Virus record (IMG/VR): IMGVR_UViG_3300033182_000750
Location: 1 to 23,518 of that record
Length of the DNA: 23,518 bases
Reading direction: 5' to 3' (one strand)
Source of the DNA: a virus
Shown: one piece after another, positions 4,098 to 20,523 of the stretch
Layout: every line of letters starts with the position of its first letter
How positions within the stretch are numbered: the stretch's first letter is position 1
The notes under the pieces: model-generated
Seen by the model: the letters and a program-made list of their open reading frames with translations, nothing else
Database searches by the model: none
Told to the model about the DNA's origin: nothing
Translations under genes and position numbers: made by a program

Positions 4098-5677
4098 TAA
4101 AATCCACCAGTCGCACTAAGCAACCGCTCCTGTTTATCTCGTTGTGACGCATCCCATTTAACCCATGCAAGCGTACCAACCTTTGGCGTCATATCCTGTT
4201 TAGCTGCCATTCCACCAGGCGTAGCAAGCCTCGAAAGACCCATGCCTACCCAGGCTATTGTATCAACAAAATCATCATGGCGCGAGTTCGGGAACTTTAA
4301 TAATTCGTCAACCGCTTTTTGCGTCCAAAACGATGATTTTGGCAGCTTCACTTTTTTCATAGCCATCCGGCCCATTATTGACTGCGCTCGCTGCACTTTA
4401 TTATGGACAGGGGTGACTTCCTCGATGCGGCAATATACCCGCTCTTCTGCCATTCTTTTCCGCAAGAACGGCCCAATCGCCTTACTGATATGGCCTTTCT
4501 CAGCCCACCAGATCAGCGGTTTATGCTTTTTCATCAGATCCAGCATCGCGTTTACCACTTTGTCGGCTGGCTGTTTCTCCCACCAGCAATCAAGAAGGTA
4601 TATGTCGTCATGCTTATCAACGCCCACTATCAGTAAGCACGTTGCATCATTCCTGGTCTTGTCAACGCCAACAGCATGATCTGACGCAGCATAAATACGC
4701 AAATCATCCGGCAGCTGACGCTTATCATAGAACACCAGGTTATCGCGCTGGAACAGATCTCCGTCCTCTGGCGTTGGCTTTCCCTGGTAAAGAGCAGCAA
4801 AGCCTCGAGGATCTAGCCGCCGTTGCGCTTCCATAAACTCTGTGTCAAATCGCTCTGGCCACAATAGTTCGCCAGGCTTACGGCCCAGCGGATCATCGTC
4901 TTCTGCCAGGGCTGGCAAGTTAATGATCTTCCACTTCGCCGCTTCTTCCTCAGAATAGTGCGGGTTTGTGGGGTCTGTTAGACGGCCAATCAGGTCATCT
5001 TCATGCCACCTGGTCTGCACAATGACGATAGACGCCGATGCCGTCATCAGTCGTGTCATCAACACCTGGGTAAACCATTGCCACAGTTGTTCGCGCAACG
5101 TAGGGCTATTTGCCTCGATACTGTCTTTGATCGGGTCATCGAGGATAACAAAGTCACCGCCACGGCCAGTAATAGAGCCGCCGCGCCCAACAAACACGGA
5201 CATACCACCAGCGGCGGTCTGGATTCTGGACTTAGACGCACCGCCTTTACGGAAACCAAACCTGGGGAAAATCTGCTTATATTGAGGCGTGGACATGATG
5301 TTGCGAACGTCCGCGCCAAAGTCTTTCGCGAAATCTTCGTTGTATGTAGCAAAAATCACGCTGCGGTAAGGATCTTTGCCCTGCAACCAGGGGACGAACC
5401 GCCTGGAAATCAACTCTGATTTGCCATGCCTTGGCGGCATCGACACAATTAACCGAGGGATATGGCCTTTTTCGACCTTCTCTAGCACTTTAGCCAGGGC
5501 GCGATGGTGTTTTGCGTCTTTGAAAAGCGACAGATCTAGGTCATCTGGGTCATCTGGGTCAGGCATCGTGAATTTTGTGAATTTAAGAAAGTCATCACGG
5601 CACTCAATGGCCAACTTTTGCCGCCTTGCAGCCGCAATCTTCTTTTCTAGGTCTGTTAGCTGCTTCTCTTTGTTCAT
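4097..5677 (-). CDS. terL: Terminase large subunit
   Basis: This is the 526-residue DNA-packaging motor. The N-terminal ATPase has the Walker A variant SMPPRHGKSE (about residues 79-88) and Walker B DFVILDDP (about 177-184). The C-terminal RNase H-like nuclease shows AASDHAVGVDKTRNDAT, WWAEKGHISKAIG, and a late acidic site in RHDDFVDTIAW. Packaging takes place at the portal, whose gene follows with a 1-base overlap. I chose the ATG at 5677 because it overlaps the stop of the muramidase gene as ATGA, the pattern used throughout this operon. An in-frame ATG at 5731 would add 18 residues and overlap the upstream gene by 58 bases, with AGAGG placed too close to it. The small subunit is not adjacent (13120-13605). 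Confidence 0.95.
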   Translation of the reverse strand: MNKEKQLTDLEKKIAAARRQKLAIECRDDFLKFTKFTMPDPDDPDDLDLSLFKDAKHHRALAKVLEKVEKGHIPRLIVSMPPRHGKSELISRRFVPWLQGKDPYRSVIFATYNEDFAKDFGADVRNIMSTPQYKQIFPRFGFRKGGASKSRIQTAAGGMSVFVGRGGSITGRGGDFVILDDPIKDSIEANSPTLREQLWQWFTQVLMTRLMTASASIVIVQTRWHEDDLIGRLTDPTNPHYSEEEAAKWKIINLPALAEDDDPLGRKPGELLWPERFDTEFMEAQRRLDPRGFAALYQGKPTPEDGDLFQRDNLVFYDKRQLPDDLRIYAASDHAVGVDKTRNDATCLLIVGVDKHDDIYLLDCWWEKQPADKVVNAMLDLMKKHKPLIWWAEKGHISKAIGPFLRKRMAEERVYCRIEEVTPVHNKVQRAQSIMGRMAMKKVKLPKSSFWTQKAVDELLKFPNSRHDDFVDTIAWVGMGLSRLATPGGMAAKQDMTPKVGTLAWVKWDASQRDKQERLLSATGGF

Positions 5678-16245: not shown

Positions 16246-16307
16246 CCAAAGCCTGGCGGCTTTGGTTTGCGCCCGATTGCTTCCGGCTGGCAATCGGGCG
16301 CTTTTTT
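16246..16307 (+). terminator. Tandem-hairpin rho-independent terminator of plus-strand module
   Basis: Two hairpins in a row: CCAAAGCC-tggc-GGCTTTGG (16246-16265, 8-bp stem) and GCGCCCGATTGC-N9-GCAATCGGGCGC (16269-16301, perfect 12-bp stem) followed directly by TTTTTT (16302-16307). The second is a textbook terminator for the plus strand. It starts at the stop of the 45-aa gene and lies between converging transcripts; in the other direction only the first hairpin, followed by TTAATA, is a weak terminator for the minus-strand early block. Confidence 0.88.
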
Positions 16308-16722
16308 ATTTCTTAGGACGCCCGCGCTTCTTTGGCTGCTGCGCCTCGATCACCTCATACGCAATAGACGCATACCCAGCGACGTCCCGCCAGTTATCCA
16401 GGCTGTTTGGGTTATGCGCGACTCTACCCAATTTCAAGATGATCCCGAACGCTGCGATATCCTGGGCGGCTATATCCTGGCCGGATCTGTTGCCCAGGTA
16501 TCCACGCATCATGGCTGCCGTCCGTGCCATGTTCTCGCCTGGCTCGCCGTATTCACCGTTTCGCTCGATCCCGACCAGTTCCTGGACGTCCGCCAGCATC
16601 CTGACCCTTATAGGCGTTGAATCCAATCGCTTGGAATCCAATCGCGTAGAATCCAATTCGACAATTTTAGAATGGGATTTCGTCATCGAAGAACGTGTCT
16701 TGTTTTTTGCTGCTCTTGCCAT
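16306..16722 (-). CDS. DUF6378-like phage protein
   Basis: 138 residues. The core ADVQELVGIERNGEYGEPGE, then MARTAAMMRGYL, then DIAAFGIILKLGRVAHNPNS and DNWRDVAGYASIAYEVIEA, matches what I recall of DUF6378, a small helical family common in phages, of unknown function. The N-terminus is extended and basic and contains three tandem LDS(T/K)R units. The C-terminus ends in the AT-hook-like tail KKRGRPKK. I chose the ATG at 16722, since AGAGG lies 6 bases upstream; starts at 16773 or 16686 lack this. It overlaps the upstream gene by 56 bases. Confidence 0.7.
   Translation of the reverse strand: MARAAKNKTRSSMTKSHSKIVELDSTRLDSKRLDSTPIRVRMLADVQELVGIERNGEYGEPGENMARTAAMMRGYLGNRSGQDIAAQDIAAFGIILKLGRVAHNPNSLDNWRDVAGYASIAYEVIEAQQPKKRGRPKK
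16619..16660. repeat. In-frame 15-bp tandem repeat (about 3 copies)
   Basis: GAATCCAATCGC recurs with an exact 15-base period at 16619, 16634 and 16649 (the last is slightly changed). On the minus strand it encodes LDSTR-LDSKR-LDSTP in the DUF6378-like gene. Because the period is a multiple of three, copy changes would not break the frame. Confidence 0.8.
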
Positions 16723-17308
16723 CTTTTTCCTCTTTCGGTTTGATGCTCTGAATTTCAGCCCCTGGGAAAACATCTTTCACTGACTTGACCAGTGGGCTGT
16801 TCTCTTCCCAAAAATTTATGATCCGGCATAACTCATCGAGCGTGTATGTCCGGCTCACTGATTCTGGGTCTACTAATTTGGCAACGCCGCTATCCTGGAT
16901 GATCGCGTATGGTTTTCCACCAGCGTTATCGGGGGCAATCGCGTACCAAATACGTTCATCGGCTGGCTGGTGCCCATTCTTTTCGGCGAACCGTTCCAGG
17001 GCGTTCCATCCAGCAATCATATTGTTTGCTTTTTGCACCAGGTAATTGTGGTCATCGTTGTTCGCTGCATCGTTGAGGTTTTGCCTGGCCTGTTCAAATT
17101 TCACTGCGAGATCGGGCGGCGCTAATCGTTCCAACCTACCAATGCCCCATCGTTGTTCGAGTCTCCGTGCCACCTCATCGACGCTATCCATCGCTGCACG
17201 GACTATCGCGTATCGGCTATCGCTCCACATTGCTGGCGGATACCAGGCATCCTCACCTCTCGCTTTAGGCTTTGCCGTTGTTTTGATGTACCGTCCTTTA
17301 TATCCCAT
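16667..17308 (-). CDS. Unknown early protein with SSB-type C-terminal tip
   Basis: 213 residues. The body is helical (WSDSRYAIVRAAMDSVDEVA, about 28-47, then a long charged region to 110) with a beta-rich part around 118-150. The C-terminal 30 residues are a low-complexity Lys/Ser linker ending in FFDDEIPF, practically identical to the conserved tip of bacterial single-stranded DNA-binding proteins. No OB-fold is evident, so it is not obviously an SSB itself. The tip would dock with proteins that normally bind host or phage SSB (recombination, primase, exonuclease factors). GAGG lies about 8 bases before the ATG at 17308. It follows the repeat array at 17364-17577. Confidence 0.7.
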   Translation of the reverse strand: MGYKGRYIKTTAKPKARGEDAWYPPAMWSDSRYAIVRAAMDSVDEVARRLEQRWGIGRLERLAPPDLAVKFEQARQNLNDAANNDDHNYLVQKANNMIAGWNALERFAEKNGHQPADERIWYAIAPDNAGGKPYAIIQDSGVAKLVDPESVSRTYTLDELCRIINFWEENSPLVKSVKDVFPGAEIQSIKPKEEKDGKSSKKQDTFFDDEIPF

Positions 17309-17363: not shown

Positions 17364-17422
17364 CCATACCCCGCCTGACGCCTACTTTCCGTTCCAGCGG
17401 AAGTAGTGCGTAAGGGGTATGG
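17364..17422. repeat. Long imperfect inverted repeat (possible cruciform)
   Basis: Nested arms pair across a 6-base centre: outer CCATACCCC with GGGGTATGG, middle ACGC with GCGT, inner CTACTT(t)CCG with CGGAAGTAG. The inner arms are inverted copies of the 11-bp repeat that follows at 17428. No T-run follows in either direction, so it is not a terminator. Together with the repeats it suggests a replication origin or protein-binding locus. Confidence 0.7.
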
Positions 17423-17427
17423 GGTAC

Positions 17428-17577
17428 TACTTCCGCCCTACTTACCGCCTACTTCCGCCCTACTTCCGCCATTTTAGAAGCAGAGAACTATTTACTTCCG
17501 CCGTTTTTGCGGGTTCACCCCCGCCACTTCCGCCCTTTTCGGCTATTCCCCCCTGTCACTTCCGCTGGCGGAAGTAA
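17428..17577. repeat. Phased iteron-like array, TACTTCCGCC units
   Basis: Units of TACTTCCGCCN start at 17428, 17439 (variant TACTTACCGCC), 17450 and 17461, four perfect 11-bp steps, then at 17493, 17525 and 17557, three steps of exactly 32 bases. An inverted copy (GCGGAAGT, 17568-17575) closes the last unit into a palindrome. An AT-rich stretch (17471-17493) lies between. Helical phasing (11 and about 3 x 10.7) suggests that one protein binds along one DNA face. Iterons with an AT-rich patch are typical of origins; operators are the alternative. Confidence 0.75.
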
Positions 17578-17932
17578 TTTGCGCTGTTAGGATTTGCTTC
17601 ATTTCTTTATGCGTATAGCCTTGTTCGGCTGCGCCTTTGATAAAGTATTTCAGCTGCTTTCCTCTGATGTGGATGCCAGGGATATTGATAAGCCAGACTG
17701 TTTTGCGGATATGCGCTGCGATGTACCGCTTACCCCATGTGATGCCGTAAACCTTGTTCCAGGTTCGGCCAAGGCGCTGGTATGAGAATATTTTACGGTT
17801 GAAGACATACACCTGGCCTTCGCTTACAAGGGGGATCAGCGGGACATTTTTCGGACTCCAATAAAAATACCCCATGCCGATTTCGACATTCGCTTGTTCG
17901 GCGAGTGCGACTAACTTTTTACTCATCATCAT
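17543..17932 (-). CDS. Unknown basic protein next to the repeat array
   Basis: 129 residues, basic, not recognised. The centre is beta-rich and aromatic (YFYWSPKNVPLIPLVSEGQV, then VYGITWGKRYIAAHIRKTVW), and the last third is helical with KGAAEQGYTHKEMKQILTAQ. The C-terminal 10 residues are encoded by the last repeat units and their palindrome. I chose the first of three ATGs at 17932, since GGAGG lies 7 bases upstream. A DNA-binding role at the adjacent array is possible (initiators often lie next to their own iterons) but no known initiator motif is visible. Confidence 0.55.
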   Translation of the reverse strand: MMMSKKLVALAEQANVEIGMGYFYWSPKNVPLIPLVSEGQVYVFNRKIFSYQRLGRTWNKVYGITWGKRYIAAHIRKTVWLINIPGIHIRGKQLKYFIKGAAEQGYTHKEMKQILTAQITSASGSDRGE

Positions 17933-18134: not shown

Positions 18135-18313
18135 TCCTCCGGCTCCGTTTCCGCCTGGCACACCTCGCCCTGGCAGCAATCGTTGACCCCTTTATGGCAA
18201 ATGCTGCATTGGTCTTGGCCACGCACATTGATCGGCTTCCAGGCCGACATACAGAAGGGGCAGCGGTTATTCGCTATCCTTCTGGCGATTTCGCCGTCAC
18301 CCATTTCAATCAT
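18131..18313 (-). CDS. Small zinc-finger protein
   Basis: 60 residues with two CxxC pairs, C18-P-F-C21 and C36-S-I-C39, plus H40, forming a probable zinc ribbon, and further cysteines at 46, 47 and 52. The C-terminus is acidic. It begins 8 bases inside the end of the primase-helicase gene (ATGATTGA overlap), so it is probably made with it. Small zinc-ribbon proteins of this kind often bind DNA or replication enzymes; the exact role here is unknown. Confidence 0.65.
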   Translation of the reverse strand: MIEMGDGEIARRIANNRCPFCMSAWKPINVRGQDQCSICHKGVNDCCQGEVCQAETEPEE

Positions 18314-20483
18314 TTCTTCTACCCCATGCTGGTTGATCGTCTGGCGTTCGGATCACGCGGATGCCTTTTGTCTTTGTCTTGCTGTCGTGAACCGTGTTTT
18401 CGATAAACCCCTGCTCGGACCAGGCGACTATGTATCCCCTGGCTGCGCGTTTCGGCATCCCATACTCGTTGACAAGCCAGGCTTGTAGGCTGCGAGTCGT
18501 GTTTGTCGCCATCGCAAACGGCTCATCCGTACCCCAGCGCCTGTTGATCTCCGTGAATATCGCTTGTGTTTGGACTCGATCCAGCTTGGCTGACGCCTCG
18601 AGGATTCCATCCACCTCCATCGTGCGATCTATCAGCAGCCCAGACTCATCGCGTATAAACGCCCTGGTGCTGTTGTCCGCTGCGTCATTGACCTTGACAA
18701 TGCCGCCCATGACACAATTACCAACACCCGCCTCAAAGCCCATCTTCTGCGCTACAACGATCTCATCGGACTCCGGCATCTGCCATAGGCCATAGACCCA
18801 CCTTGCGCCGTCTACGAGCGCTGTAGTGCCTCTAATCGCTTCCCTGGCCTGGACAGACTTGCGGATGCTGAACGTGCCTTCCTTGCGCATATGGTGGGCA
18901 ATCAGGACGTTCGCGCCAGCGGCCACACATAACTCACTCATCAGCGACCACCAGAATTGAGCAGCAGCCGGATCTGTGTTGATGTCGGCATGAGCAAAGG
19001 CTTGCAGCGGGTCGATGATAACCAGGGCTATGTCGCCCATATCTTGCAGCTGCTTGCGGATGTCCTGGTATTCCGGCGATATGCTGTATTGGCCCATCAC
19101 GTTCTGGATAAAGGGGATCGGGCCACCAGCATCCGGCATCGGAACCACAAACAGATTCCCAGCCGCTCTCTCACGCAGATTAGGGCCGCTGATATTCGCG
19201 ATCCGGCGGTGCATACTGTTTGCAGAGTCTTCCGCCCCCAGGAACACCACCTTGCCATTGTGAACAACCTTGCCGCCGAGCGCTGTTTCCTGGTGCATAT
19301 TCTGGTCGCCGCCAGCAACCTTCATCGCTAGATCGAGCAAGATAAACGACTTGCCGAGTCCACCGACAGCCGCGATCAGCCCAGGTACTCGCCTGGGCAA
19401 TATGTTTTCGATAAGCCATTCCTGTTCTGGCGCTTCGCCAGCATAGCGGCTCATGCCCCAATCGGCGATGCGGAGGGAACGCTGTTCGGGTGGCGTACCC
19501 ACGTTCCCCCCGCTGACCGAACCCTGGTCGTGATGCGGAGTTGAAAGCATCGTTTGGGTCGGTTTCTCAGAGCCAGGCTCTACACCTTGTAGAATCCGCA
19601 GTTCGTTATTTCTAGCCCTTTTTAACTGATAGTTGGCTTTGTATTGGAATAACTCTATCCCGCGCCCATCTGATGCCAGATCGCTGCCCCTTGCCTTCGC
19701 TTTAGCGGCAAAGGTAGGCCAGGCATCCTCGACTAACTCCTCAACAGTTGGCAGCACACCTTTTTGCGCCCACCAGGTGCGGATTGTCCCCAGGATCAGC
19801 TGCACCATGTAGCCTTCACGGCCATCAACAAGGTCGCCCCAACGGTCAGTCGTCGTGCCTTGTATGACAGAAGTGGACATACTTCCGTTTTCAGCGCCGA
19901 TCTTAACCATCTCGCGCAGCCAGTCAGGACTTTCCTCGATGATATCCCGATGCGGCGAGACAATGTAATTATGGCCAGATTTGTGGTTGCTGGGAGCGAC
20001 AACCACAAATCCGCCTTCGCCCCTGGTGTCCACACCGTCACCAAGGGTATTCTTCCCAGTTAAAATCTCGGTGTCTGGCGGCGCTCTGAAAAAATAATGC
20101 CGCCCTCCAGACCCTGTGATCTGCTCAAGAGTCTCGGGCAGATCATCATTAGCCATCTGTAAATCGTCTAAAGTGTCCGGCCCTGGCTTGCCTTCACCAA
20201 TGTCAACATCAACAACAAAAATGTTCCCGCTAATCTTGCCAGTAACAACACCCAGGTTGTAATCGGCGAACCGACCATCGAACCACATTTCAAGCGTATG
20301 CGTGTCAGCCTTCTTTTCCTGGTAGGCTTTCCAGCGGCTTGGCGCTGGGTGTTTGCCAGGGCTTGGGCAGTCCCTCCCCATCTTGCAGCTGCACACCCCA
20401 TCCTTAACGTAATGGACAGGGATCACGCTAAACCCTTTTTGAAACCAGAATTTGGCCCAATCTGTTTTTGTTTGTAATTCCAT
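18306..20483 (-). CDS. Bifunctional primase-polymerase / RecA-fold helicase
   Basis: 725 residues. The N-terminal 200 form a Prim-Pol (AEP-type) domain: a cysteine cluster CSCKMGRDCPSPGKHP (about 31-46), the metal site VVDVDIGEG (about 90-98), then GSGGRHYFF and GDGVDTRGEGGFVVVAPS (about 148-165). The C-terminal part is a RepA/AAA_25-type hexameric helicase: Walker A AAVGGLGKSF (about 371-380), Walker B LVIIDPLQAF near 485, and NVLIAHHMRKEGTFS. It primes and unwinds the phage DNA. I used the ATG at 20483, as the longer GTG start at 20516 falls inside a terminator hairpin. It follows that terminator, so it may have its own promoter or depend on read-through. Confidence 0.93.
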   Translation of the reverse strand: MELQTKTDWAKFWFQKGFSVIPVHYVKDGVCSCKMGRDCPSPGKHPAPSRWKAYQEKKADTHTLEMWFDGRFADYNLGVVTGKISGNIFVVDVDIGEGKPGPDTLDDLQMANDDLPETLEQITGSGGRHYFFRAPPDTEILTGKNTLGDGVDTRGEGGFVVVAPSNHKSGHNYIVSPHRDIIEESPDWLREMVKIGAENGSMSTSVIQGTTTDRWGDLVDGREGYMVQLILGTIRTWWAQKGVLPTVEELVEDAWPTFAAKAKARGSDLASDGRGIELFQYKANYQLKRARNNELRILQGVEPGSEKPTQTMLSTPHHDQGSVSGGNVGTPPEQRSLRIADWGMSRYAGEAPEQEWLIENILPRRVPGLIAAVGGLGKSFILLDLAMKVAGGDQNMHQETALGGKVVHNGKVVFLGAEDSANSMHRRIANISGPNLRERAAGNLFVVPMPDAGGPIPFIQNVMGQYSISPEYQDIRKQLQDMGDIALVIIDPLQAFAHADINTDPAAAQFWWSLMSELCVAAGANVLIAHHMRKEGTFSIRKSVQAREAIRGTTALVDGARWVYGLWQMPESDEIVVAQKMGFEAGVGNCVMGGIVKVNDAADNSTRAFIRDESGLLIDRTMEVDGILEASAKLDRVQTQAIFTEINRRWGTDEPFAMATNTTRSLQAWLVNEYGMPKRAARGYIVAWSEQGFIENTVHDSKTKTKGIRVIRTPDDQPAWGRRND

Positions 20484-20495
20484 TGTCGCCACCCG

Positions 20496-20523
20496 AAAAA
20501 GGGGGGCGGCGTTCACCGCCCCC
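20496..20523 (-). terminator. Rho-independent-type terminator before primase-helicase
   Basis: On the minus strand, GGGGGCGG-tgaacg-CCGCCCCC (20523-20502) is a perfect 8-bp GC-rich stem followed by C and TTTTT. It lies between the putative SSB gene (stop 20532) and the primase-helicase start (20483), so it would lower expression of replication genes compared with the upstream ones. Confidence 0.7.

Follow-up and report, generated by a model that had tools for sequence, protein, structure and literature searches.

Results

The window, by which we mean the whole 23,518-nucleotide stretch analysed here (IMG/VR record IMGVR_UViG_3300033182_000750), derives from a marine phage. Early genes on its minus strand encode, among others, a RuvC-like resolvase, a PD-(D/E)XK nuclease, a Prim-Pol/AAA_25 primase-helicase, an orphan 213-aa protein termed c2 and a DUF6378 protein; small ORFs and a repeat array belong to the same segment. 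The primase-helicase gene (18306..20516, minus strand) lies upstream of the array in gene sense, and its helicase half is a sequence relative of the RSF1010 helicase RepA (PDB 1g8y, E 4.6e-13). The C-terminal ~125 residues of this protein (18309..18683, minus strand) look winged-helix-like by inspection and form a candidate unit-binding domain. The next gene after the array encodes c2 (16667..17308, minus strand), which ends in the SSB-like tip FFDDEIPF; the DUF6378 gene (16306..16773, minus strand) follows c2 in nearly all relatives. Those small early genes of the window that were scanned gave no Pfam match, and no RepC homologue was recognised. Near the overlap of the c2 and DUF6378 genes (16613-16665), short GAATCCAATCG repeats encode LDSTRLDSKRLDST; L003, L025 and L029 also contain LDS repeats of this kind. 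A strong terminator-like hairpin (16269-16301) lies near the point where the minus-strand early genes converge with plus-strand ORFs.

The array comprises nine copies of the unit TACTTCCGCC/GGCGGAAGTA within 181 bp (17396..17576; gene sense is the minus strand, on which the unit reads GGCGGAAGTA), accompanied by a 59-bp cruciform. A cluster of four units at 11-bp spacing (17428..17470, minus strand; starts at 17428, 17439, 17450 and 17461) is followed by three units at 32-bp spacing (17493..17566, minus strand; starts at 17493, 17525 and 17557), giving successive spacings of 11, 11, 11, 32, 32 and 32 bp. On the plus strand, TACTTCCGCC is exact at 17428-17437, 17450-17459, 17461-17470 and 17493-17502. 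The initial annotation had described the cluster as four end-to-end 11-bp units; three of them are perfect copies, but the imperfect unit at 17439-17449 (TACTTACCGCC) carries one extra base. Likewise, the 32-base spacing that it reported for three further units is exact, whereas the last two copies are degenerate (17525-17534, one mismatch; 17557-17566, two mismatches). The 9-mer word of the unit occurs six times within 160 bp of the array, as against a maximum of two in 200 mononucleotide shuffles of the region.

Two inverted units complete the element. One, exact at 17567-17576, stands head-to-head with the degenerate direct unit in slots 0/11, so that the last unit is indeed closed into a palindrome (17557..17576) as first proposed; the other, with one mismatch, lies at 17396-17405 within the hairpin. 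The last units had also been placed inside the end of a coding gene. The 129-aa ORF over the outer end of the array (17543..17932, minus strand; 17543-17932/17965 in full) is real as an ORF, but it is an accessory gene and its overlap with the array is incidental, since the closest relative (L001/L002, 94% identical) lacks both this gene and an 86-aa gene, likewise next to the array, and keeps the whole array.

Comparison with related phage genomes, a check suggested at the outset, revealed that unit and spacing are kept as a cis element beside replication genes. More than 50 related IMG/VR loci, 21 of them non-redundant, share the layout; of 113 further units in these 21 loci, 85 sit no more than 1 bp away from one of eight fixed slots. 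Measured from the terminal inverted unit, the unit positions in 18 lineages follow a best period of 10.67 bp (R=0.785, compared with R 0.31 for the best of the random sets), which bears out the earlier proposal that the units face the same side of the helix. Such a single helical phase suggests that double-stranded DNA is read by a cooperative protein. The slots are unchanged in relatives whose helicases are 69-85% identical to that of the window. A scan of IMG/VR by DNA pattern alone found more contigs, and those with a clear array encode c2 just downstream; a c2 profile scan yielded 74 loci, some on contigs already found and most with an array. Several c2 loci without the standard unit carry another unit in the 11-bp tandem layout, followed by the C-rich box described below. 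Where a relative is long enough to include the helicase gene, the array almost always lies downstream of it, often only 15-60 bp from c2; another ORF stands between array and c2 in the L005/L006/L016/L017 clade. Each of the seven records tested for array loci contains one.

Beyond these records, neither isolate phages nor plasmids gave a DNA match to the window. Among GTDB genomes, no relative was found with the c2 profile (searched with one peptide pattern), and the DNA pattern returned 10 stretches with a single match each, as by chance. A literature search on the letters of the unit gave nothing that looks relevant among the part of the matching papers covered. In six loci (L074, L081, L105, L107, L109 and L113), an extra gene that by inspection resembles a DNA adenine methyltransferase (YPTP and NPPY motifs) is inserted between helicase and array, marking this gap as a site of gene turnover.

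The hairpin, an imperfect 59-bp inverted repeat already noted to the left of the array and located exactly at 17364..17422 (minus strand), has the arms CCATACCCC and GGGGTATGG around the terminal inverted unit. In 16 aligned sequences, its nine-pair helix contains 20 double-changed cells and no one-sided change, with only one G-U among the counted pair cells. None of 500 shuffles reached the covariation score of the stem, which drops sharply when the partner columns are slid, and RNAalifold agrees with the stem on the same alignment. Because related sequences inflate such covariation counts, we read them as strong support for a stem maintained by compensatory changes in the relatives and attach no probability to them. 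In a second clade (L106-L116), the inverted unit sits in a different hairpin. The gene-sense RNA also folds better than shuffles (z -2.97); no Rfam match was obtained for the element and no terminator was called at the hairpin.

Between the last direct unit and the hairpin lies a C-rich box, CCCCATACCCC in gene sense (17414..17424, minus strand), which is near-invariant even in loci with other unit sequences and which in some loci can pair with a purine-rich stretch ahead of c2. The AT-rich patch noted in the array corresponds to the spacer at 17471..17492, a candidate unwinding element that is 70% AT in the window; across 21 loci its mean is 63%, compared with 54% for the neighbouring spacer, and many relatives carry an ACAGC plus A-tract motif within it.

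Loci with variant units proved informative, for in these all units change together while spacing and C-box are kept. Two lineages (L010-L013; L114-L116/L120) carry GGCGAAAGTA in place of GGCGGAAGTA, and the units ATCCGGTGGTC, TCCGGTGGGTG, TGCGGGTGGTA and ATCCGGAGGTA, of CCGG- or GCGGG-type, were found in L077, L082, L085 and L086. In L119, where the helicase is of VapE type and the unit is GGGAAGATA, the arrangement before c2 is retained and c2 ends in an IPF tip. To judge from the sequences, this concerted change is the pattern expected of sites that co-adapt with their binder. L082 and L085 constitute a natural experiment for unit specificity: their units differ at two positions, whereas the last 110 residues of their helicases are 98% identical, their c2 proteins 90% and the HTH proteins encoded after the helicase 74%. 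The helicase ends differ by a T to R change in a wing-like loop, which as an explanation of the unit difference is only a lead.

A second pattern scan recovered the 9-mer of the window in much more distant phages. One group, of which L154, L144 and L138 are examples, combines 13-14 units with a Prim-Pol helicase; many of its members also encode a c2 relative, which in L154 ends in DDDIPF. In the other group (L135, L143, L149 and L152), the array starts right at the 3' end of a RepA-type helicase gene, the product of which, where scanned whole, contains DnaG-zinc/Toprim plus AAA_25 in place of Prim-Pol. No c2 was found beside these four arrays; in L143, L149 and L152, the gene after the array encodes an SSB with a DDVPF or DEVPF terminus, an assignment backed by Pfam for L143 and L152. 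Helicase, array and c2 are all present in L150 and L151. L056 carries a GCGGAAGTA array (4275-4450) lacking the C-rich box, together with a very distant c2 relative (hhalign E 1e-6) lacking the SSB-like tip. Common to these loci are the array and a RepA-type helicase homologous in its C-terminal domain; an adjoining protein with an SSB-type tail is usual as well. In the arrays of L135, L143, L149, L150, L151 and L152, an IHF-like consensus, WATCAANNNNTTR, occurs between units, exactly or with one mismatch; these sites exceed shuffles in five of the six arrays and are nearly absent from window-type arrays.

We next consider which protein reads the units. Every helicase aligned from the neighbourhood of a GCGGAAGTA array has a homologous C-terminal domain and, given the common denominators above, we rank the helicase ahead of c2; that this domain is the unit-binding part is a tentative assignment with a little under an even chance of being right. 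Against the helicase stand the nearly identical helicase ends of L082 and L085 with their differing units, and the usual dependence of RepA-type helicases, that of RSF1010 among them, on a separate initiator. For c2, the case is doubtful. Residue 42 is Ser in every locus with CGGAAGT units and Thr or Ala in the other unit classes, a tracking with a random-overlap p of about 0.05 and with similar columns in the primase; together with the lack of c2 beside the L135, L143, L149 and L152 arrays, this led us to reject c2 as the sole binder. The 129-aa protein, initially put forward as a candidate cognate binder, was discarded because L001/L002 keep the array and lack its gene. A 120-aa protein (g120) was also rejected, as loci with identical units differ in its putative recognition helix and the protein was not found in L119. 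Since many of the records are fragments, the binder may be encoded by a gene outside them, or it may be a host protein.

The c2 protein itself has no Pfam match, including to the SSB domain PF00436, no PHROG match and no match among isolate phages. AlphaFold2 models (mean pLDDT 77.5 and 82.4) are helical and include a small sheet; they gave no significant fold match in the PDB, and nearly all matches in a viral library are uncharacterised. The SSB-like tip is present in 59 of 71 complete proteins. Four further proteins continue past the tip with GNIID, an extension that would spoil an SSB-type tail; c2 of L103 ends in KEIPF, that of L105 looks broken and the most distant c2 proteins have no tip. 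With the tip present and the OB-fold SSB domain (PF00436) absent, c2 is not a canonical bacterial SSB.

Discussion

The conserved array, its phasing, the hairpin and the helicase neighbourhood keep a replication origin, one of the two functions first suggested for this locus, as the leading reading. On sequence evidence, it is quite probable that the element serves as the phage's origin, and the whole iteron-type explanation is probable as well: phased repeats, an array beside the helicase gene and kept with it, and concerted unit change are all found here. A switch in GC skew, proposed initially as a check, is seen neither in the window nor in a 42-kb relative; skew follows gene orientation in these genomes and is therefore uninformative, and we dropped it as origin evidence.

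In the mechanism we propose, the helicase, alone or together with a partner, would use its conserved C-terminal domain to bind the phased units cooperatively and would wrap the DNA. The AT-rich spacer, the cruciform or both would then open, and the fused Prim-Pol would enter or prime at the extruded hairpin. The protein with the SSB-like tip, c2 in the window and a true SSB elsewhere, may cover or signal the exposed strand and dock partner proteins.

Other readings of the array must be weighed against an origin. The most serious of them, although improbable, is an operator: a transcription regulator of phage or host would occupy the phased units and govern expression of c2 and DUF6378 within the early operon. 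The position of the array close upstream of c2 would fit this, phased sites suit a DNA-bound repressor, and in one small clade the differences in the unit are accompanied by differences in the HTH protein encoded right after the helicase. This alternative is weakened by the lack of a sigma-70-like promoter in the region, by the extra ORF that splits array from c2 in the L005/L006/L016/L017 clade and by the differing downstream genes, SSB rather than c2 following the array in L143, L149 and L152; moreover, 181 bp and a structured hairpin are large for the control of one downstream gene. A very unlikely role is that of an RNA element of the early transcript, acting as a terminator, in translational control of c2 or as a sponge for an RNA-binding protein. 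RNA folding, the compensated hairpin and the C-box pairing speak for it, whereas the 10.67-bp phasing is a property of the double helix, neither a terminator call nor an Rfam match was obtained, and G-U pairs are nearly absent from the stem. A CsrA-type sponge is excluded where the units are GGCGAAAGTA, which lacks GGA.

The array might instead be an attP, with arm-type and core sites for the phage tyrosine integrase, or a partition centromere (parS/parC-like) of a plasmid-prophage; we give the former scarcely any probability and the latter the least of all. Nine of 11 related contigs encode a tyrosine integrase, so these phages are probably temperate, and the 11-bp spacing of the array resembles the 10-11 bp arm-site spacing typical of attP. 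The array is tied to the helicase instead, and arrays occur without an integrase match in the contigs of L083 and L119, which may be incomplete. In the 42-kb relative, ~6 kb separate the integrase from the array, and the repressor-integrase region has its own repeat cluster directly after int, which makes the array an unlikely attP. That int-proximal ACAGCGCAAA cluster, three exact copies in both orientations over 217 bp (L128:11888-12170; G001 31.9-32.2 kb), is the probable attP. As to partition, parC arrays bound by ParR-type proteins have similar phased 11-bp direct repeats, which is the likeness in question; against it, these phages carry an integrase instead, and a search for ParA-type ATPases (PF13614; 0 of 10 contigs) and ParB_N (PF02195; 0 of 8) was negative.

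An origin of this composition has partial counterparts. Phage satellites possess repeat-containing origins (PMC7145576). The origins of P4-like and SaPI-like satellites and of iteron plasmids likewise combine short direct and inverted repeats, an AT-rich patch and an adjoining replication gene, and their repeat sequence is element-specific, as here; they differ from the present element in its fixed 181-bp layout, two spacings in one helical phase, C-rich box and conserved cruciform. Satellites and iteron plasmids use SF3 or Rep initiators, as opposed to the RepA-fold helicase found here. The oriV of RSF1010 (IncQ) is similar in that it comprises iterons plus hairpin-type priming sites. RSF1010 RepA is related in sequence to the helicase half described above, but that plasmid has a separate RepA helicase, RepB' primase and RepC initiator, whereas primase and helicase are fused here and no counterpart of RepC was seen. 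Replication of the Sulfolobus plasmid pRN1 needs a stem-loop directly downstream of its Prim-Pol/helicase gene, and the stem is conserved by structure more than by sequence (PMC4234260). The Prim-Pol-helicase fusion (ORF904) and the stem-loop directly 3' of its gene are shared with the phage locus; the pRN1 helicase is of SF3 type, in contrast to the AAA_25/RepA-type helicase and the phased array besides the hairpin here. In Rhizobium phage RHph_Y3_1, a cluster of nine GTTCCCA copies in both orientations immediately follows a related RepA-type helicase gene, a similar placement with a different unit and layout and with no c2 seen.

These comparisons leave room for a broader, tentative proposal, about as likely to fail as to hold or slightly more so: the loci may represent a replicon family not described before, from tailed phages that are mostly uncultured, in which the RepA-type primase-helicase reads its own one-face origin through its C-terminal domain beside a conserved cruciform, and the orphan SSB-tail mimic c2 stands where other phages with this origin encode a true SSB. 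The origins of most uncultured phages are unknown, and here a DNA pattern alone would find one. As the putative origin occurs across phages sharing only the RepA-like helicase half, co-adaptation of origin and initiator becomes testable with natural variants, and the linked c2 family would give an orphan protein with an SSB-like interaction tip its first role. In both the window (17578) and L002, a single exact copy of the ACAGCGCAAA 10-mer lies next to the array; given the copies elsewhere, its position there may be due to chance.
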